A stretch of DNA of 64,000 bases, from the NCBI RefSeq assembly GCF_024464595.1, contig NZ_JANHAW010000004.1:62001-126000 (forward strand). The letters run 5' to 3'. The translations under genes were made by a program, and so were the position numbers. The notes under the pieces were generated by a model that was not told the origin of the DNA, did not search any database, and saw only the letters and a program-made list of their open reading frames with translations. Below, in pieces: positions 4,447 to 63,043 of this stretch (positions within the stretch are counted from its first letter, which is position 1; each line of letters opens with the position of its first letter). This DNA is from Halobellus litoreus (GTDB lineage Archaea; Halobacteriota; Halobacteria; Halobacteriales; Haloferacaceae).

Positions 4447-4890
4447 TCAAATCTCTCGAATTACGTCGCCGTCGGGCTCTATTGCATTTACATCCCCGTC
4501 TGTGAGCGGGACTTCAACCTCGATCTCTACGAGATAATTTTCATTCGCCAGTTGTTCGTGTCCGAGAACGGTATGACACGGATAAGGCTCGTCGAACGTC
4601 TCCCAGTATACCTCCTTATATCCCTCGTAGTAGTGGGTCTCAGGATCCACGATGTGCGTTGTGACCTTGGCGACGTCAGCCAGTGTCTTTCCGATCGTCT
4701 CGAGGAGGACCTCGATATTCTCATAGGCCTTCCGTGCCTGAGATTCGATATCATCTCCAACGATGTTCGAGTTGGCGTCCATCGCAACCTGCCCAGCCAT
4801 ATAGAATGTTCCACCATCGATAATAGCGTGGTTGTATCCAATGTCGCGGGCATCCTTGAGCTGTGATGGATTAATTGCATATCGCGTCAT
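4447..4890 (-). CDS. Rid/YjgF/YER057c/UK114-family protein
   Basis: 147 aa. It has the single-domain Rid fold signature: HAIIDGGTFYMAGQVAMD near residues 20-40 and DVAKVTTHIVDP near 75. Rid proteins deaminate reactive enamine/imine intermediates in amino-acid metabolism or act as subunits in ring-degradation pathways. The C-terminal block reads ANENYLVEIEVEVPL, without the Pro-x-Arg that carries the substrate-binding arginine in true RidA, so it probably belongs to another Rid subgroup. It lies 66 bp downstream of the M20 hydrolase on the same strand, likely in one transcript with hutU-hutI-M20. A direct role in that pathway is inference. Confidence 0.85.
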   Translation of the reverse strand: MTRYAINPSQLKDARDIGYNHAIIDGGTFYMAGQVAMDANSNIVGDDIESQARKAYENIEVLLETIGKTLADVAKVTTHIVDPETHYYEGYKEVYWETFDEPYPCHTVLGHEQLANENYLVEIEVEVPLTDGDVNAIEPDGDVIREI

Positions 4891-48244: not shown

Positions 48245-48358
48245 CTGTGTTAGTGAGAGAGTTCTGGGACTTGCGTCTCCAGCGAGATTGAACGAGCTTT
48301 ACTTTCACTATGGATGGCTGATGTTCATATCCGAAGCGAAGGTATGCTAAAGTGGCTG

Positions 48359-49702
48359 ATGAAGCGGACTAACACGTTCGCCGTGCGACCGCTTTCCGAT
48401 ACCGGTGAGCAACTGCTACGCGATCTGTTGGACGCTTCCGCCGCTCTCTGGAACGAAATTAACTACCAGCGCCTGATGCGGTACAACGACGAAGACGGGT
48501 TCAAGGGAGACGTGTGGGACGCCGATACAGGCCAACTCGAAGGCAAATACAAAGGCGTGCTCGGCGCGTCTACCGCCCAACAGGTCATACGGAAGAACAG
48601 TGAAGCGTGGCGCGGGTTCTTCCGCCTGAAAGAGCAGTATCACGACGGGTCGAACACGTCGATTACGGAACACCCGGAGCCGCCGGGGTTTCGCGGTAAC
48701 GACGACGATGGGCGGCAACTCCAGACCGTCATTCGCAACACCTCATACACCGTCGACTGGGGCGAGCGCTCACGACTTGAAATATTGGTCGGGAGCGACT
48801 TGAAGGACCGATACGATTACACTGGACGTCTCCGACTCGAAATCGCTGGCGACCCGAACTGGCCCGACTACGAGAGTCAGGGACGGCTGGATCTGTGGTA
48901 CGACGAGACTAATTGCACCTTCCGAGCTTCGCAGCCCGTGATTGTCTCTGACGATGCACGGGCGACTCCACTGGCCTCGGAGGAGGCCGCTTTGGATATT
49001 GGTGCAAACAACCTCGTCGCCTGTACCACAACGACCGGTGACCAATATCTGTACGAAGGTCGCGGACTATTCCAGCGGTTCCGCGAGACGACACGAGAAA
49101 TCGCCCGACTACAGTCGAAGCTCGAAGACGGACAATACAGTAGCAAACGGATTCGGCGGCTGTACCGAAAGCGAACCCGTCGCCGCGACCATGCTCAAGA
49201 AGCGTTGTGTCGTGACCTGCTGAAACGACTCTACGAGGACGGCGTGAACACGGTGTATATCGGCGGTCTGACCGACGTACTGGAGACACACTGGTCGGTC
49301 GAAACCAACGCCAAGACCCACAACTTCTGGTCATTCAGAAAGTTCACCGAACGGCTGGCTTGTACCGCCGAAGAGTTCGGTATTTCTGTAGAAGTTCGGT
49401 CGGAGGCGTGGACGAGCCAGGAGTGCCCTCAGTGCGGTTCGACGGACCGAACAACCCGGCATCGCGACACGCTGACGTGTCCGTGTGGATTCGAGGGACA
49501 CGCCGACCTCACGGCGTCAGAGACGTTCTTAGACCGGCACACAGAACAGGAAGTCAGGCCGATGGCACGGCCCGTGCGGTTCGAGTGGGACGACCATAAC
49601 TGGTCGGGGATACCACACCCTCAGGAAAGTCCCAAAGAACAGCGCACAGACCCAAGTACCGTCCAGCGGGACGGAAATATTGCGTCTGGGGAATCCGTAT
49701 AG
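48359..49702 (+). CDS. TnpB-like protein of a divergent clade, RuvC-II glutamate not visible
   Basis: 447 aa from [20 protein letters not shown] (an in-frame ATG at 48314 adds 15 residues). RuvC-I is [15 protein letters not shown] near residue 215. The position of RuvC-II reads [15 protein letters not shown] near 302, where other TnpBs here have F-E-N/D-L. The zinc finger is CPQCGS...CPCGF and RuvC-III is [11 protein letters not shown] near 385. The Glu-to-Gly change may mean altered catalysis or a displaced acid. The element has a hairpin right end at 49724-49752 and lies in an orc1/cdc6 gene. Confidence 0.85.
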
Positions 49703-49723
49703 CTGAGATTTCCACGGATGAAA

Positions 49724-49752
49724 CCCTGTCGTCTATGACGGGGAGGATGTCA
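49724..49752 (+). ncRNA. Right-end hairpin / omega-RNA 3' region of the TnpB-like element
   Basis: CCCTGTCGTC-TAT-GACGGGG folds as a stem with one mismatch, followed by AGGATGTCA at the junction with the orc1 reading frame. The MITE right end at 24743-24772 has the same arrangement (stem then GGAGGATGTCA). In IS605-type elements this region forms the 3' scaffold of the guide RNA, with the guide taken from the flanking DNA, here the orc1 remnant. Confidence 0.55.
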
Positions 49753-49753
49753 T

Positions 49754-50557
49754 GTCAACTGCTGGCGTAACTATACCCGGTTCTGGGCGCTCTACCAGAT
49801 GCTTGAGGACCTCGGCGCGACCATCGACATCCACCGGCAGTCGACGCCCCATGACGAACTCGTCGATCGCCTCCAGCAGCATGACGGCCCGCGAACCGTC
49901 GTCATCCTCGACGAGGTCGACCAGCTCGAAGACCCCAGCGTCATCTACGACCTCCACAGCCTCCCGCAGTTCGCGATCATCTGCATCGCGAACAAGGAAG
50001 AGGAGCTGTTCAGCCGCGTCGACGACCGCCTCGTGAGCCGGCTGCGCTCCAGCGAGCACGTCCGGATGGACAAGTACCACGACGAGCAGCTGTACGACAT
50101 CCTGGGTGCTCGTGCGAAGTGGGGTCTCGACGAGGACGTCATCACCGACGACCAGCTCTATCGCATCGCCGACGCGGCCGCCGGCGACGCCCGCCTCGCG
50201 ATCGGCATCCTCCGAACAGCGGCCAGCAAGGCCGACCGCGAGAACCACGAGCGGATCACCGACGACATTCTTCTGGATGCCGCCGAAGATGCTCGGGCCC
50301 AGATCAAGCAGAAGAGCCTCGACTCGCTCACGCCGCACCAGCGCGTCGTCTACGACATCGTGCGCGAGCACGGCCCGGTCGGGCCAAGTGAGATCCACGA
50401 GCACTACACTAAGGAGGTCGATGACTCCCGGACGAAACGGACCGTCCGGACGTACCTCTCCAAGATGAAGCAGTACAATCTCCTCAAGGCGGAGGGCACG
50501 AGTCGGGATCGAGAGTACTCACTCGTCGATTCGGCCGCTGCGTCGCCGATGCAGTGA
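49754..50557 (+). pseudogene. Orc1/Cdc6 replication initiator, N-terminal ATPase portion lost to TnpB insertion
   Basis: In-frame text from the insertion point is VNCWRNYTRFWALYQMLEDL, then RTVVILDEVDQLEDPSVIYD (Walker B), VDDRLVSRLRSSEHVRMDKY (sensor/arginine region), DAAAGDARLAIGILRTAAS and the C-terminal winged helix SLTPHQRVVYDIVREHGPVG. The Walker A and the first 100 or so residues are absent and not found left of the TnpB element. A shorter product from an internal ATG at 49799 could still be made, but it lacks the ATP-binding loop. Confidence 0.85.
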
Positions 50558-54258: not shown

Positions 54259-54741
54259 CTACGGCGGGTTCTCAGCGTCGTTGATCCCTTCGAACGTCTC
54301 GTGAGCGTGGGCGTACCGCCATCGTTGGAGAATCGCTTGCGTCACGAGGCCGGTCTCGGACACAGCAATACAGGATTCCTCGACGGGACGGCTGGGAGCG
54401 TCGGGTGGGGGATGGAAGTGTCGTCTCGGGGCGTCCGGTTTCGGGTGGCAATCGAACCGGAAATCCTGATTCCGATCGTCCGTGTAGTGGATCGCATAGT
54501 TTCCGGTTAGACTCCACCGGATGTCGATTCGAGCGGTTGACGCTGCACCGACTCCATCGGACAGTTCGACCGAGAGTGTCTGTGGATTCACCGGATCGTC
54601 TAGTGATGCTGTCTCGGCCAGCGGTTCCTGCTCCATGATCAGGTCGCGAATCTCACGCAACGCCCCGGCGTCAATCGGCCCAAATACCTCGGATTGCTCG
54701 ACCGACTGAGACTGTTGAGAAGGAGTCTCGTCGCTGGTCAT
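54259..54741 (-). CDS. HPPPDA-motif protein (possible TumE-like toxin), module 1
   Basis: 160 aa. The core (TARIDIRWSLTGNYAIHYTD, DFRFDCHPKPDAPRRHFHPP and PDAPS) contains a strand-rich region ending in a Cys/His-rich motif D-C-H-P...H-F-H-P-P-P-D-A, followed by a helical tail. The same layout is in the protein at 55415-55846. The size, the RW...Y strands and a terminal histidine cluster resemble TumE/DUF6516-like toxins, but I cannot confirm homology. It overlaps the winged-helix partner by 4 bp (ATGA). Confidence 0.6.
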   Translation of the reverse strand: MTSDETPSQQSQSVEQSEVFGPIDAGALREIRDLIMEQEPLAETASLDDPVNPQTLSVELSDGVGAASTARIDIRWSLTGNYAIHYTDDRNQDFRFDCHPKPDAPRRHFHPPPDAPSRPVEESCIAVSETGLVTQAILQRWRYAHAHETFEGINDAENPP

Positions 54742-55349
54742 ACGACGATGGATGGATCGCTATCGCCCTCATCGTCGGTATCTGTGCCAGTCAGGTGGCC
54801 AGTGTTGCTTGCTTCGCCGATTGCGAGTGTTGCTTGTGCGAGTGCGAGGTTGCGTCGCGTCGTTTGCCATTCCGTGAGGAGGGCACCGTAGTCGCTGTCG
54901 ACGTCGTCGACGTCTCGTTCACGGGCGAATTCTTCGGGTGAATCGACACCATACTCCTCACGCCACTCCTGTATCTGTGCCTTCATATCAGCAATCCCGG
55001 ACGCGATCTCTTCGGGGGACAGTTCCGCGAGCAGCGACTGTGCATGTTCGGTGACAATCGCCGTTTCCGATCGTCGGTAACACGTCGTCTGCCCATCTTG
55101 GGAGGTCGTCACTTCGCCAGCGCTTTCGAGCGTTCGCAGGTGCTTTCGCGCCGTTGTTGCCGAGACGCGGGCGCGGTCGGCGATCTCGCCGGCGGACGCA
55201 GGGTTGTAGGTAGTGCGAATGATTTCGTACACTCGTTCAAACGGCGTCGTCTCCTCAATCCATTCTTCTTCGACGACATCGTTTACGTCGCGGTGTTCGG
55301 TCCCTCCATCAGGGATCATTCGACCGGCCGGGACCATCTCCTCGGACAT
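54738..55349 (-). CDS. Winged-helix regulator, module 1 partner
   Basis: 203 aa from MSEEMVPAGRMIPDGGTEHR; a TATA-like ATTATAC about 25 bp upstream supports this start over longer frames. The winged helix is FERVYEIIRTTYNPASAGEI, ADRARVSATTARKHLRTLES, AGEVTTSQDGQTTCYRR. The C-terminal half has a helical region IADMKAQIQEWREEYGVDSP. It is the upstream gene of a two-gene operon with the HPPPDA protein, suggesting an antitoxin or operon repressor. It is paralogous in layout to the gene at 55849. Confidence 0.75.
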   Translation of the reverse strand: MSEEMVPAGRMIPDGGTEHRDVNDVVEEEWIEETTPFERVYEIIRTTYNPASAGEIADRARVSATTARKHLRTLESAGEVTTSQDGQTTCYRRSETAIVTEHAQSLLAELSPEEIASGIADMKAQIQEWREEYGVDSPEEFARERDVDDVDSDYGALLTEWQTTRRNLALAQATLAIGEASNTGHLTGTDTDDEGDSDPSIVV

Positions 55350-55414
55350 GATATGCCAAACAACGCTAGAAGAGTATAATAATCTGGGGGACAATATTTT
55401 GTTCTCTTGGCTGC

Positions 55415-55846
55415 CTACTGCCGTTCCCACAGCGTTTCGATTCGCTCTTCGACGTACTCGAGGACGAGCTGGCAGACGTCACGATGGTCTTGGGGCCACT
55501 GTGCGTCGTCTGCGTTGGTGCGACCGGCATCCGGCGGCGGATGGAAGTGATCTCGTTCGTTGTGACTGCTGGGGTGGCGGTCCCAGCGACACTTCCACAC
55601 GCTCTCTTGACGCTCTTCTTGATAGTGAACGGTGAAGTCGTCGTTGCGATACCATCGAATCTCAAACCGAGCAGACGCATCGCCCGGGTAGTAATCACCG
55701 GCGAGTTCGATACGGAGATACAGCTTTCCCTCCTCGACGAGGTCCACTGCTTCGAACATCCGACGGCCAGCGAATCGAGACTGTATCCGCTCTAGCACCG
55801 CACGGTCCAGTGGCGCGGGACTCGCGCCGTCGTCTGCCGGTACCAT
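55415..55846 (-). CDS. HPPPDA-motif protein (possible TumE-like toxin), module 2
   Basis: 143 aa. ASARFEIRWYRNDDFTVHYQ is followed by VWKCRWDRHPSSHNERDHFH and PPPDAG, then a helical tail CQLVLEYVEERIETLWERQ. The motif C...DRHP...H-F-H-P-P-P-D-A matches module 1. It lies 2 bp downstream of its winged-helix partner. Function is unassigned; a conserved Cys/His cluster suggests a metal or RNA-cleaving site. Confidence 0.6.
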   Translation of the reverse strand: MVPADDGASPAPLDRAVLERIQSRFAGRRMFEAVDLVEEGKLYLRIELAGDYYPGDASARFEIRWYRNDDFTVHYQEERQESVWKCRWDRHPSSHNERDHFHPPPDAGRTNADDAQWPQDHRDVCQLVLEYVEERIETLWERQ

Positions 55847-55848
55847 TG

Positions 55849-56367
55849 TCAGCCGTGCGATGGCGCTGTCGAGCTAGTTGCCTTCTGGCGGGCGCGCTCG
55901 TGGAGTCGTCGTTCCTCAACCGCGGTTGCCCAGTCCCCGAGGTCCGCATACACGTCATCAACGTTCTCGGCGTCGTATTCGAGAACATCGACGTCACCGG
56001 GCGAGTCAGCGTCGTACTCATCGCGGTAGGCTTCGATTTGGTCGGTGAACTCCGAGACCCGGGCCTGTAGTTCTTCAACGGTGTGTTGGTTCGCCAGTTC
56101 GTTCATTCGCCGCCACTCGAAGTAGTCGTCGTTGCGCTCGTATCGAACTGGACGACCATCGTGATGGATGACGATGCCGAGGTCAGTGTAGAAGGACAGA
56201 TGCGTTCGTGCGGACTCTTCGGAGCAGTCTGCACGCTCGGCAATCTCGGCGGCGGTCATCGGCTCCCGCGCATGGAGGACCGCGCCGTACACGCGCTGTT
56301 TCGTGTCTTCGCCGTCGAATGGCCGGTCGAATGGGGGTGGGCCGTCGCGACGAGCGTCGTTTGACAT
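55849..56367 (-). CDS. Winged-helix regulator, module 2 partner
   Basis: 172 aa. The winged helix is KQRVYGAVLHAREPMTAAEI, AERADCSEESARTHLSFYTD, LGIVIHHDGRPVRYERND. The helical C-terminus (ELQARVSEFTDQIEAYRDEY) is paralogous in arrangement to 54738-55349, including the DADSPGDVDV / GVDSPEEFAR segment. It is the first gene of the second tandem module. A TATA-like tract (AAATATGT) lies about 25 bp upstream of the ATG. Confidence 0.75.
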   Translation of the reverse strand: MSNDARRDGPPPFDRPFDGEDTKQRVYGAVLHAREPMTAAEIAERADCSEESARTHLSFYTDLGIVIHHDGRPVRYERNDDYFEWRRMNELANQHTVEELQARVSEFTDQIEAYRDEYDADSPGDVDVLEYDAENVDDVYADLGDWATAVEERRLHERARQKATSSTAPSHG

Positions 56368-56562
56368 ACTTCGACCAACGGGCTAAGAACACATATTTCT
56401 TGCTCTGCCCTAAATATATTTGTCCCGTCCATAATTTCGGATTGACTACCCTACTCGGGACGACGGCCGCGTCTATGAGTGGGGGCCATCACCAACGGCG
56501 TGGTCGCGACTGAAATGAAGACTATATTAATACTTTTAACGATAGCTCTATTTGTGAGGTGC

Positions 56563-57792
56563 GTGAAGGTCCGCCGCACCGTCCCGGTCAAACTCGACGT
56601 GACCGACGAACAGGCGGACCTGCTTCATGAGACGATTGATGAGTTCTTGTGGGCCGCCAACTACGTTGTGGATGCTGCGTGGGACGGCGAGTGGGCTGAA
56701 ACCCGCTCGTCCGTTCTACACGAGCAGACCTACGATGAAGTCCGCGAACAGACGCAGCTCCACAGCAACCACGTTCAATCAGCTCGTGACCGTGCCGTTG
56801 ACGCACTCAAGAGTGTTGTCACCAAGTGGTCGAACGGCGAATATGCCTCGTTACCGACGTTTACCGCTAGGTTCTGTGACTACAACCAGCGCAACGCGAC
56901 TTTCCACGACGACCACGCCTCGCTCTCGACTGTCGATGGACGCGTGACCGTCGAGTACATCTTACCCGACGAGACCCGTGATACGCCCCACTCGGAGTAC
57001 CTGCGTAGCGACGACTGGGAACAAACCGGCGCAACGCTCCACCATCGCCGTGGCGATTTCTATCTCCACGTCCGAACAAAGGCGGACGTGGATAACCCCG
57101 AACCAGCCGAGAACGGAACGGTTCTCGGCGTGGACCTCGGGGTCGAGAACATCGCTGTCACTTCAACAGGTGTATTCTGGTCCGCTGATGAATTGAACCA
57201 CTGGAGACAGGAGTTCGTTGAGCGCCGGAAGTCGCTCCAAGAGTGTGGGACACGGTATGCCCACGAGAACGTTCAGTCTGTCGGACGTAAGGAAGAGGGG
57301 CGCTTCAAGCAGTATCTGCACAGTGTAGCAAACGAACTGCTTGAAGAGGCTACAGAGAACGGCTGTACGGTGATCGCGTTCGAGAACCTGACGGATATCC
57401 GTGACCGGATGCCGAACGCCCGGAAGTTCCACGAATGGGCGTTCCGGCGACTGTACGAGTACGTCTCATACAAAGCCGAGGAATGTGGCATCTATGTCGA
57501 GCAGGTGAATCCGAACAATACGAGTCGGCGGTGTTCATCGTGCGGGTTCACCCACGAGGACAACCGCCCGTCGCAGGACACCTTTTGCTGTCAGTCCTGT
57601 GGATACGAGAACCACGCGGACTACAACGCGGCCAAGAACATCGGCTATCGACTCCTTCGCAACCAAACCGGGGGCGAAGGAGGCGTACCCGTAGGCGTGC
57701 GCTTGAACACCGGGATGCTGAACGCGAACGGGATCAAACCCGTACCGGATTCGGTTAGAGCGGGAGTCCATGGTGAAGACCCACCACTATAG
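56563..57792 (+). CDS. tnpB: TnpB RNA-guided nuclease inserted in a DNA polymerase B gene
   Basis: 409 aa from the GTG at 56563 ([20 protein letters not shown]); a longer upstream frame to 56479 is not conserved. The RuvC motifs [29 protein letters not shown] and [11 protein letters not shown] and the zinc finger CSSCGF...CQSCG are intact. It is the same length as and very similar to the TnpB at 42729. The right end runs directly into polymerase-B coding text at about 57793. No TnpA is visible. It probably forms a solo TnpB element recently spread within this replicon. Confidence 0.92.
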
Positions 57793-58911
57793 CGGGGTTA
57801 GCCTACCTGTACCCGGAACGTCTCACCGGACGTCATCCGGTGTGACTGCCACAGCGACCGCGACGACGTCCCCGGCCTCGGATACTCGATCTGCGACGAC
57901 CAGGGCTACCTCGTCGACGTGCTACAGCCGATCATCGACGCTCGCGACGAGATCAAGGCGGCCATCCGTCACGAGAAGGAACGGGACGACCCCGACGAGG
58001 ACCGGCTGGCGGAACTCGAGGGACGGTCGGGAGCGCTGAAGTGGATCCTCGTCGCCTGCTTCGGCTATCAAGGGTTCAGCAACGCGAAGTTCGGCCGCAT
58101 CGAGTGCCACGAAGCAATCAACGCGTTCGCTCGCGAAATACTGCTGACGGCGAAACAGCGGCTGGAAGCCGGCGGCTGGCGCGTCGTCCACGGCATCGTC
58201 GACTCCATCTGGGTGACCCCGGACCCCGACGTCGACGACAAGGACCGCGAGGACCTCGGGACGCTCGCGACGGCAATCACGGAAGAGGTCGAGATCCGGC
58301 TCGAACACGAAGCCCACTACGACTGGGTGGCGTTCGTGCCGCAGCGCGAGAGCGACGCCGGCGCGCTGACGAAGTACTTCGGGAAGGTCGCCGGCGACGA
58401 CGACTTCAAGATCAGAGGTATCGAAGCCCGACAACGTTCGACCCCGCCGTTCATCGAGGACGTCCAGCGGGACTGTCTCGAACGGCTCGACGCGACTCGA
58501 TCTCCGGACGGCGTACTCGACTGTCTTCAGGATGCTATCAAGCGCCTCCACGCTGGAACGGTGCCGGTCGAGCAGCTCGTCGAACGGAATCGTGTCTCTA
58601 AGCCACTCGAAGGATATACGCAAAACACCCAGAACGTGGCGGCGCTGAAGCGGGCACGGGAGCAGGACCTCGCCATCCATCCGGGACAGGATATCGAGTA
58701 CGTAGTTGTCGACGACGAGAAAAATTCGCGAGAGCGGGTCGCGTTAGCCCACGAAGAAAGAGTCGTACGATGCGTCGTACTACGAGACGCAACTCGTCAG
58801 AGCTGTCGAGAGTGTCCTATCACCGCTGGGCTGGGATCGTAGCGAAATTCGGCGGACAATTGGTACGACTCGGAAGACGGAGCTGACCACCTTTACCGGG
58901 ATCGATGATTA
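57793..58911 (+). pseudogene. C-terminal half of a family-B DNA polymerase, cut by TnpB and frameshifted
   Basis: The readable frame begins RNVSPDVIRCDCHSDRDDVP just after motif A (a Y-L-Y-P is visible in a neighbouring frame). Motif B follows as IKAAIRHEKERDD...ACFGYQGFSNAKFGRIECHE, and motif C reads VHGIVDSIWVTPD where the canonical YGDTDS would be. Near 58755 the frame shifts; the native tail continues ESYDASYYETQLVRAVESVL, SPLGWDRSEIRRTIGTTRKT and ends FTGIDD at 58911. The front half with the exonuclease domain and motif A is missing. Confidence 0.82.
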
Positions 58912-58948
58912 ACCAACACTACTGGGAATTCGGAGCTATGTTGGTTAA
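58909..58948. repeat. Dispersed 40-bp inverted-repeat element, copy 3
   Basis: TTAACCAACA, 20 nt, TGTTGGTTAA. The TAA stop of the polymerase tail is formed by its first bases. The arms are identical to copies 1 and 2. Confidence 0.85.
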
Positions 58949-59602
58949 TATTGGATGTAACCACGTACTGCTGGAGCCCAGTCCAAGCCAAAGATGGTGA
59001 GGGAACGTCACTTAACTTGACTAATATCGGGATCAAGGTTCGATAGTCGGTTCCTAAATAGAAGTTAATTTGTGGTGCTGAAGGAGGAGGTGGAACATAC
59101 ACCTCTATCGATGTGTTTGAGACAGGTCACTGGTATCCGAGAAGCGAAATACATCGAGGATACAGACACCCCTCTATCGATGTGTTCCATAGGTCGACGT
59201 GAGGTGTTTGACCGAATACAAACGATGATGATAACGTCAAGTTAGAGTAGTCCTTCAGTAGCATCGCTCTATTTGCCGTAAAGTGACTTTATTTGGGTAT
59301 CTAAGCTAACGAGAACTGAAACCCGGTTAGAAGGTGATGAACTCGACACATCGAACACATCGATAGAGGTGTGTGTGTGTTAGTGTGTTCTAGAAAGCTA
59401 GAAAGAAAGAAACAGATTCTTTTCTCAAGGGAAATCTGGGGGTTTAATCGGCTTGTGGGTGTAATTGGGGCGAAGAAGGGCTACCGACGATGGTTTGATC
59501 TAGAGATACTCTCCAATAGCCCCTCCCCCTTCGATCCGTTGAACACATCGATAGAGGGGTGTGTCTCTGGATCCACCGACTGAGTTAACACTTCGTCGGA
59601 CG
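58949..59602. repeat. Gene-free AT-rich region with four ATCGATAGAGG repeats (candidate replication or partition site)
   Basis: Four copies of AACACATCGATAGAGG(GG)TGT occur: two on the minus strand (59099-59117, 59166-59187) and two on the plus strand (59353-59374, 59541-59564). The pairs face each other around an AT-rich centre (59190-59340). Partial copies (ACATCGA) occur at about 59150 and 59344. No gene with recognisable features lies here. The layout resembles initiator or partition-protein binding sites. Confidence 0.6.
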
Positions 59603-59839
59603 TCATGGATACAACTCATAACTGAGGATCGAATTTTTGAATTCGTGTAGATACCACCACCGGGCCGCTTTGAGAACCACTATGGGATTCGTCGGCGGCT
59701 GCTCACCGGCGAGTCCACGGGTGATGGACTCGATTTCGTCGGGGACGTCGGCGGAATCGACCTCTGCTGATTGCGTGTTGTCGATATCGACCGGGATCTC
59801 GTCGCTCGAGACGTTGTCTGGACTCTGTTGTTGACTCAT
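59603..59839 (-). CDS. Small acidic hypothetical protein
   Basis: 78 aa, MSQQQSPDNVSSDEIPVDID..., with a C-terminal hydrophobic/aromatic segment (PTNPIVVLKAARWWYLHEFK). Not recognised. Composition and a clean ATG fit a real haloarchaeal plasmid gene. It sits between the ATCGATAGAGG repeats and a polymerase-B remnant. Confidence 0.5.
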   Translation of the reverse strand: MSQQQSPDNVSSDEIPVDIDNTQSAEVDSADVPDEIESITRGLAGEQPPTNPIVVLKAARWWYLHEFKNSILSYELYP

Positions 59840-59860
59840 TGAAAGTCACCTCTGAGAGCC

Positions 59861-60031
59861 TTCGAAGGAGCCCTCGCCCACGAGGAGATCAAGACCTACG
59901 ACGCCTCGTACTACGAGACGCAACTGGTCAGAGCGATCGAGAGCGTGCTTTCTCCTCTTGGCTGGAATCGGCATAATATTCGACGGGAGCTCAATGAAAC
60001 ACGTGTAGTCAGTATCACGGACTGGATCTGA
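59861..60031 (+). pseudogene. Second DNA polymerase B C-terminal remnant
   Basis: ALAHEEIKTYDASYYETQLV, RAIESVLSPLGWNRHNIRRE and LNETRVVSITDWI, then stop. This is homologous to the end of the frameshifted polymerase tail at 58740-58911 (YDASYYETQLVRAVESVLSP, LGWDRSEIRR). Only the last 55 codons survive, with no upstream continuation. The two tails differ, so they descend from two separate polB genes or an old duplication. Confidence 0.78.
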
Positions 60032-60933: not shown

Positions 60934-62433
60934 ATGGGACGAGAGGGACGTAGAGCAGGATCGAATCATCCAGAAGATGAGGAGGATCGCGAATCCTCTT
61001 CTGCTGATCCTGAAAACCCTGAGTCGACGGGTGGTGATGGTGATTCGCCCGATACGTCACAAACGACGTTCGAGAAGGGCTCGGATCCGGTTGATTCGTC
61101 TCAACAAGCAACCAACGGCGACGGTGGCGGCATCTCAATTCGTGATCGACTCCAAACCGAGTCGTCCGGGGGCGTTTTCGCGAACAAAGACCTCGTTCGA
61201 TCAGATACTATCATCGACGAGGATCGTATCGTCGGTCGTGATGACCAACTGGGCCGTGTCGTCGACAATCTGAAACCGGTACTCCAGAATGAAGGCATCC
61301 CGGATATGCTTCTGAGTGGTCCCTCTGGAACTGGGAAGTCGCTCATCATTCATGCAGTCTGCAAACAGATCGTCGAACTGTGTGAATCTCAAGGCAAGAC
61401 GTTCGGGGTCATTTCAATCAACTGCGAGGGGCCGAAGACTGCTGATCGGGCGGTCTATCGGTTAGTTAAAGCTGCTGCCGACGACCTCGGCGTCGATCCT
61501 GGAGTTCCCCAAACCGGAGTTTCAACGGATCAGAAGCTGGAGCGACTGTACGAACTGATGCGCGAGTACTACGACGGTGTGATCTTCATTCTCGATGAAA
61601 TCGATATGCTTGAAGGACCGTATCAGGAAGCAGAGTATAATTCTCTCATCTACCAGCTTTCACGGGCGCGAAAACTCGCCGATTTTGATGGTCCGATTTC
61701 ACTCACGACTATCACGAACTACGCCGATTTTATGAAGGACCTCAACAGCCGCGCACAGAGTTCTTACAATCCTGACGATATCTTCTTCGACGATTACGAT
61801 GCGAATCAACTCCGTAGTATTCTCCGCAACCGACGGGACGCCTTCAAACCAGAATCGCTTGCGGATGATGTTGTTCCGCTTGTTGCTGCGTTCGGATCCC
61901 AAACCCATGGGGATGCGCGGAAAGCGATTGATCTCCTCAGATGGGCTGGTGAATTAGCCGAGCGGCGTGGAGCCGACACAGTTACCGAGGCTGATGTCCG
62001 TGATGCTCAGGAGAAATACACCGAAAACCGCAAGCTCCGCCATATTAGCGGCATTTCGACTCAAAAGAAACTCTCCATCTACGCCGTGGCGGCGACGGCC
62101 AACTACGCAAGAGAACATCCTGAGTGGATCCCTGCTGGACCTGCGTTCAAGACGTACCAATTCATTGCTGATACGATGGACGCAGACCAGTACAGTCGCG
62201 AGACGTTCGTGAATCACGTCACAGAGCAGAGTACGTACGGTGTGTTGGACTTCGAGCGTCGAGGCAAGGGGCGAGGCAGAGGAGTGCATATGTATTTCTC
62301 CCTCTCCGAGGATCCGGAAACGATTATGGAGACTATACGTGAGGATTCCCGGTTCGAAGATCTAGCTCACGAAGAGGCGACTATCAGCGCGGTTGTCCGC
62401 GAACGGTTGAAGCAGTTCCGTAGCAAGAACTAA
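60934..62433 (+). CDS. orc1: Orc1/Cdc6 replication initiator
   Basis: 499 aa from ATG 60934 (MGREGRRAGSNHPEDEEDRE); the longer upstream frame crosses the promoter and an ORB. The acidic N-terminal tail covers residues 1-75. AAA+ motifs are Walker A MLLSGPSGTGKSLIIHAVCK near 125, Walker B GVIFILDEIDML near 220, sensor 1 ISLTTITNYADF near 260, and sensor 2 GDARKAIDLLRWAGE near 330. The C-terminal winged helix begins near 400 (AGPAFKTYQFIADTMDADQY). It is the probable initiator acting on the flanking ORB repeats and is intact, unlike the orc1 remnant at 49754. Confidence 0.95.
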   Translation: MGREGRRAGSNHPEDEEDRESSSADPENPESTGGDGDSPDTSQTTFEKGSDPVDSSQQATNGDGGGISIRDRLQTESSGGVFANKDLVRSDTIIDEDRIVGRDDQLGRVVDNLKPVLQNEGIPDMLLSGPSGTGKSLIIHAVCKQIVELCESQGKTFGVISINCEGPKTADRAVYRLVKAAADDLGVDPGVPQTGVSTDQKLERLYELMREYYDGVIFILDEIDMLEGPYQEAEYNSLIYQLSRARKLADFDGPISLTTITNYADFMKDLNSRAQSSYNPDDIFFDDYDANQLRSILRNRRDAFKPESLADDVVPLVAAFGSQTHGDARKAIDLLRWAGELAERRGADTVTEADVRDAQEKYTENRKLRHISGISTQKKLSIYAVAATANYAREHPEWIPAGPAFKTYQFIADTMDADQYSRETFVNHVTEQSTYGVLDFERRGKGRGRGVHMYFSLSEDPETIMETIREDSRFEDLAHEEATISAVVRERLKQFRSKN

Positions 62434-62664: not shown

Positions 62665-62988
62665 TCATTCGTCTGGATTGACTGGGCCTTTGTATTTGGA
62701 GGTCACCTTGTCGCCTTCTCTCCATTGCCAGTAGTAGTAGCGGTTGTCGTTGATCTCCTTGATCGTGATCGTCGCTTTGGCAGGGACATCGTCCGGGAGG
62801 TCGTCTGGTCGCTCATCCACCTCGTCTTGGTCTGCCTCCTCTTCGAGACGGGCCTCACGTTCCTTGTGCTCGGCTAGCGCTTCGGCGTACGTTGAAACGT
62901 CTCGGAGTCGGTTCGGAGTCGACTCGTTGAGGACGTTGACGATTTCCGTCGGAAAGCTCGACGGTGGGGCCGGTGGTTCGTAGGACAT
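62665..62988 (-). CDS. Small protein next to the origin (DUF6788-like tail), unknown function
   Basis: 107 aa starting MSYEPPAPPSSFPTEIVNVL; the nine-codon upstream extension is not favoured. The middle is Glu/Asp-rich (EHKEREARLEEEADQDEVDE). The tail TIKEINDNRYYYWQWREGDK with VTSKYKGPV resembles the short YYYxQWREGDKxxSKYxG motif of DUF6788-type haloarchaeal plasmid proteins. It is convergent with orc1, with ORBs between. Its upstream region contains inverted-repeat copy 4. Confidence 0.6.
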   Translation of the reverse strand: MSYEPPAPPSSFPTEIVNVLNESTPNRLRDVSTYAEALAEHKEREARLEEEADQDEVDERPDDLPDDVPAKATITIKEINDNRYYYWQWREGDKVTSKYKGPVNPDE

Positions 62989-63002
62989 CGGCTCTCTCCG
63001 TA

Positions 63003-63043
63003 TTAACCAATACAATCCGCAAATGCAAAGCTCTGTTGGTTAA
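63003..63043. repeat. Dispersed 41-bp inverted-repeat element, copy 4
   Basis: TTAACCAATA (one mismatch), 21 nt, TGTTGGTTAA. It lies 15 bp upstream of the start of the minus-strand gene 62665-62988 and about 80 bp upstream of the regulator on the plus strand, in a position suited to an operator. Confidence 0.8.

Follow-up and report, generated by a model that had tools for sequence, protein, structure and literature searches.

Wu et al. 2012 (PMC3528665) set out how haloarchaeal replication origins that adjoin orc genes are structured, and listed a single predicted origin for plasmid pL131. The orc/cdc6 origins of pL131 and of Halorubrum lacusprofundi pHLAC01 (WP_011324482 and WP_012660246) have the same repeat, or box, as the locus analysed here, arranged as facing pairs 5′ of the orc gene in non-coding DNA. 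Unlike these two, our locus in Halobellus litoreus has neither the cognate gene, orcA, nor the boxes downstream of it, and so comprises an upstream half only. Two box types beside one initiator gene, as found here, also occur at the Hla_3512 and Hwa_HQ2959A loci of Wu et al. 2012; the element that those loci share, beginning TAACAGCGGAAACAGTGGGG, differs in sequence from our box, and at our locus, unlike theirs, the second box set leads back to one particular initiator family, since lost, and the junctions are visible. Gain, loss and disruption of haloarchaeal origins are already known (Wu et al. 2014, PMC4441112, and Wu et al. 2012), for example in the oriC3-cdc6D variable regions of Haloarcula, where they likewise came about through recombination and mobile elements (PMC4441112). 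Those regions are chromosomal, with transposases at the origin, whereas at our locus one plasmid replicator cassette appears to have replaced another. What is new here is therefore no more than the present case and the connection it makes between cassette swaps and boxes left behind.

The 64,000-nucleotide stretch of DNA that was analysed (the window) contains four exact copies of a 16-mer, AACACATCGATAGAGG, forming two facing pairs as the preliminary description had reported. Copies 1 (59102–59117) and 2 (59171–59186) are on the minus strand, and copies 3 (59354–59369) and 4 (59542–59557) on the plus strand; together they span 456 bp, at spacings of 69, 184 and 188, around a non-coding centre. 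The conserved box extends to about 21 nt, AACACATCGATAGAGG(G/T)GTGT, and all four copies fit a profile of this box, termed ORB-A, built from 433 sites. A scan of the whole 3,857,234-bp Halobellus genome found no exact copy elsewhere, the next-best match being a single site with two mismatches on another contig, and a chance origin of the quartet was rejected because the exact copies are confined, genome-wide, to 59102–59557. Scanning the window with two mismatches allowed was uninformative, as short mismatched sites are common. No ORB-A copy lies 3′ of 59557 in the window, nor elsewhere in the genome, and a downstream box set is thus absent.

The non-coding stretch between the end of a polB pseudogene (at about 58912) and position 59651 is 54.8% AT, against 41.7% for the whole window. 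Enrichment is modest both in the centre between the facing pairs (59187–59353; about 56%, or 56.5% between the inner copies) and in a candidate unwinding element to the right of copy 3 (59370–59440), which is largely conserved in the Halobellus relative G254. The AT-rich centre that had been described is accordingly richer than the window, but the richest 60 nt of the quartet, at up to 65% AT, lie in the latter stretch.

The 15-base core of the repeat was found by exact scan in 79 of 392 genomes of the order, and the quartet region matches 45 plasmids. Among the listed plasmids having that region, 20 of 20 encode OrcA, an Orc1/Cdc6 protein, at no less than 85% identity. The motif is present in all 53 sampled genomes whose OrcA has 85% or higher identity to the query, in at least three copies in 51 of them, as counted by a hand tally of the motif scan and the OrcA search with that cut-off. 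Annotated sites adjoin one orc1/cdc6 family on Natronomonas pharaonis pL131, Halorubrum lacusprofundi pHLAC01 and Halorientalis pHOS300, and the same association occurs in Haloarcula CBA1115 and Halostagnicola larsenii; across genera, OrcA proteins are 84–88% identical to one another. In most intact loci the upstream minus copies precede the plus copies, the nearest plus copy commonly lying about 190 bp 5′ of orcA, and extra copies 3′ of the gene are common, although not universal. This is the structure of the orc-adjacent origins of Wu et al. 2012 (PMC3528665). ORB-A is mostly absent from genomes whose OrcA relatives are 66–71% identical. Nine single matches in viral contigs, none of them clustered, and scattered single matches in bacterial contigs were taken as chance. 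Instead of being scattered away from replication genes, which would have counted against the preliminary description, the repeats cluster at orc1 genes across haloarchaea, and on this linkage AACACATCGATAGAGG is the predicted origin recognition box of pL131-type orc1/cdc6-adjacent plasmid origins.

Intact versions of the locus occur within the same genus. In G254, polB, the quartet and orcA follow one another in that order, and the window aligns with it both in polB (57807–58991; 87.6% DNA identity) and in the origin upstream of orcA (59138–59651, plus strand; 79% identity over 517 bp). In Halobellus inordinatus (G216) the boxes are spaced 70/183/192, compared with 69/184/188 in the window; orcA comes next, with a further box pair 3′ of it.

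On the left, the quartet is preceded by the 3′ half of the plasmid polB pseudogene (57807–58912, plus strand), covering residues 355–671 and, after a 2-nt frameshift near 58760, residues 673–715, with 94% protein identity to the polB of Haloarcula JP-L23; farther upstream the gene is broken by inserted DNA, within which lies a TnpB gene (56479–57792). On the right, homology to G254 ends at 59651, about 77 bp short of the orcA start codon expected from that relative. The next 228 bp (59652–59879, minus strand) are a fragment of an unrelated plasmid gene, with its start codon at 59839 and its C-terminal part missing, 95% identical to a Haloarcula litorea plasmid hypothetical gene (WP_276274221) and over 90% identical to other plasmids. 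The stretch around the quartet, which had been described as gene-free, is so up to 59651 but not beyond, where this foreign-gene fragment sits. The right end of the fragment has about 10 nt (GCCCTCGCCC) in common with the ensuing polB sequence, a second polB tail (59870–60031, plus strand; residues 666–717) that forms the left end of another replicator cassette, B. From about 59870 to its end, the window follows the polB-tail/origin B/OrcB module of Haloarcula JP-L23 at 88% identity, and the polB tail is for that reason present twice.

Origin B consists of boxes of a different type, ORB-B (TTACAACTCGAAAACGGGG), with one minus and five plus copies between 60044 and 60807; further copies lie 3′ of the OrcB gene (60934–62433, plus strand), which encodes the intact Orc1/Cdc6 protein of the B cassette, 96% identical to that of JP-L23. 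The quartet boxes differ in sequence from ORB-B, copies of which occur in this region only from 60044 onwards. OrcB thus has a different box set of its own, as had been noted of the neighbouring orc1 gene, and these boxes lie on both sides of it; its start lies 1.4 kb from the last quartet repeat and not 1 kb as stated. A small hypothetical gene on the minus strand (62665–63015) forms a right flank that is found downstream of A, B and third-type (C) origin cassettes alike, and the polB left flank is likewise common to all three types of locus.

The cognate orcA is absent from the quartet locus, where the junction at 59651 is found instead. Searching the Halobellus genome with OrcA as the query returned no OrcA; the best match was OrcB, at 47% identity (45–47% in OrcB–OrcA comparisons), and the others were weaker, more distant Orcs. 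The assembly is 99.94% complete but is in 10 contigs, and may have missed a small plasmid with OrcA. Another orc1 gene, about 33% identical to OrcA, lies on the same 229-kb contig (C4:21999–23153), so there may be more than one origin on this replicon.

Considered together, the findings make it very probable that the quartet represents the upstream half of a plasmid origin of the pL131 Orc1/Cdc6 type, orphaned when replicator cassettes were swapped: the repeat is linked to OrcA, other Halobellus genomes have the locus intact, two junctions are visible, the assembly lacks OrcA and the neighbouring OrcB module is complete. The suggestion that it had served a second, since lost, initiator is upheld in that form; the lost protein would be a pL131-type Orc1/Cdc6 protein and not a Rep, which is unneeded, the box being that of an Orc family. 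In the relatives, the product of the neighbouring orcA would presumably bind the facing boxes and unwind the AT-rich stretch. In an ancestor of the present plasmid, orcA and its downstream boxes would have been removed as the polB-tail/origin B/OrcB cassette joined in, probably by plasmid recombination and deletion, for which one junction shows a short microhomology. Since the polB left flank and the small gene on the right are common to A, B and C loci, recombination between shared flanks could exchange such cassettes. With OrcA gone, origin A should be silent unless an OrcA arrives on another plasmid, and replication should start at origin B.

Against reading the quartet as a relic, it may be held that none of the four boxes has decayed, as could suit an origin still in use. 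The 228-bp junction fragment, however, has kept 95% identity to its relative, so that the roughly 80 bases of the boxes should have collected few changes after orcA went; its loss may be recent, to judge from this identity, and the perfect boxes are not strong evidence for present use.

Among other readings, it is unlikely that the quartet belongs to a composite origin in which OrcB, or another resident Orc, serves it, either with A and B boxes acting jointly or with two origins sharing one initiator. ORB-A and ORB-B do have an ungapped pattern in common, ACAnnTCGAnAnnGGGG (12 of 17 bases, as read from the sequences), OrcB is the closest OrcA paralogue in the genome, and two different box sets beside one orc gene appear in Wu et al. 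2012 (PMC3528665). That paper also argues for linkage-specific recognition, though, and OrcA and OrcB occur together in two genomes (G426 and G419), which argues for separate specificities. ORB-A is, moreover, mostly missing where OrcA relatives are 66–71% identical, so the box sequence changes well before the 47% that separates OrcB from OrcA. As the quartet's owner OrcB was rejected, its own box set being different and complete, on both sides of the gene.

Also quite unlikely is that selection has kept the box array without an initiator of its own, either as a dormant origin for an incoming OrcA plasmid or as a means of titrating OrcA and so excluding competitors. A second origin that works in trans, through an OrcA from a plasmid absent from the assembled contigs, would suit the quartet's perfect boxes and the complete upstream-half layout, but appears very unlikely given the degree of completeness reached by the assembly without OrcA, and given that orcA was cut off at the quartet locus itself, with foreign DNA in its place. 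A partition (centromere) site, which had also been proposed, or an operator for transcription, in either case without a role in replication, is typically a cluster of inverted repeats, and a ParA gene occurs close by in one relative, but over dozens of plasmids the repeat tracks orc1 and not par genes, and its copies flank orcA on both sides, leaving this reading unsupported and extremely improbable.

The replicator exchange proposed for the window has counterparts at three further loci, in which ORB-A boxes lie beside a replaced or truncated orcA. On contig_77 of Halorubrum tebenquichense DSM 14210 (L202, 3619–7310), orcA has been replaced by a cassette of polB tail, origin C and OrcC, so that the order there is a facing ORB-A pair, another polB tail, boxes of a third type (TTTCGCACACGGGGTGT), OrcC (51% identical to OrcA) and ORB-A copies again. 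That locus likewise retains ORB-A after the replacement; it differs from the window in its newcomer, OrcC, in the boxes of the latter and in having ORB-A left on both sides. In Natronomonas sp. CBA1123 (L206, 4716–6860), an unrelated Orc (32% identity) adjoins ORB-A boxes of the downstream set and a C-terminal stub of OrcA, 64 residues long, and in G422 (L210) only the OrcA stub and boxes are kept. At a separate locus, in G162 (L208, 4790–7333), an insert of about 1.07 kb interrupts the OrcA gene near residue 262, and boxes are still present on both sides. The G280 chromosome (L205) has two ORB-A boxes, at 4598 and 4642, 44 bp apart, and no orc gene within about 4 kb; this pair is possibly another relic.

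The locus thus appears to be a plasmid caught changing its replication system, with common flanks around a differing origin-plus-Orc cassette and old boxes that can stay behind. Haloarchaeal loci where two unlike box sets adjoin a single orc gene can be read concretely in this way, and the case is a warning that box arrays found by pattern searches need not be active origins.

Directly 3′ of polB is an inverted repeat, TTAACCAACA...TGTTGGTTAA (58901–58956), which may be a terminator or a recombination site; in Halorubrum tebenquichense similar ones occur after each of the two polB tails. The interrupted polB region further upstream (54259–56367) contains two HTH/DUF7342 proteins (54738–55430 and 55849–56367), each paired with a small gene, of which the one at 54259–54741 matched no known family in a family scan.

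An N-terminally truncated Cdc6/Cdc18-family gene at 49754–50557 (plus strand) had been suggested as the initiator to which the quartet belongs. Its product is 25–31% identical to OrcA and OrcB in partial alignments, and no ORB-A with up to two mismatches was found within 4–8 kb of its orthologues on three plasmids (L197, L198 and L199), which was the comparison that had been proposed as a check. As a member of a separate family, with the repeat absent from three orthologous loci, it was rejected as the quartet's owner. The gene lies directly after a TnpB-family gene (48314–50557 for the two together) and has lost its N-terminal part; its product is about 95% identical to intact plasmid proteins of 342 residues, and the intact form is found in Haloplanus rallus on the same polB-orcB plasmid backbone.
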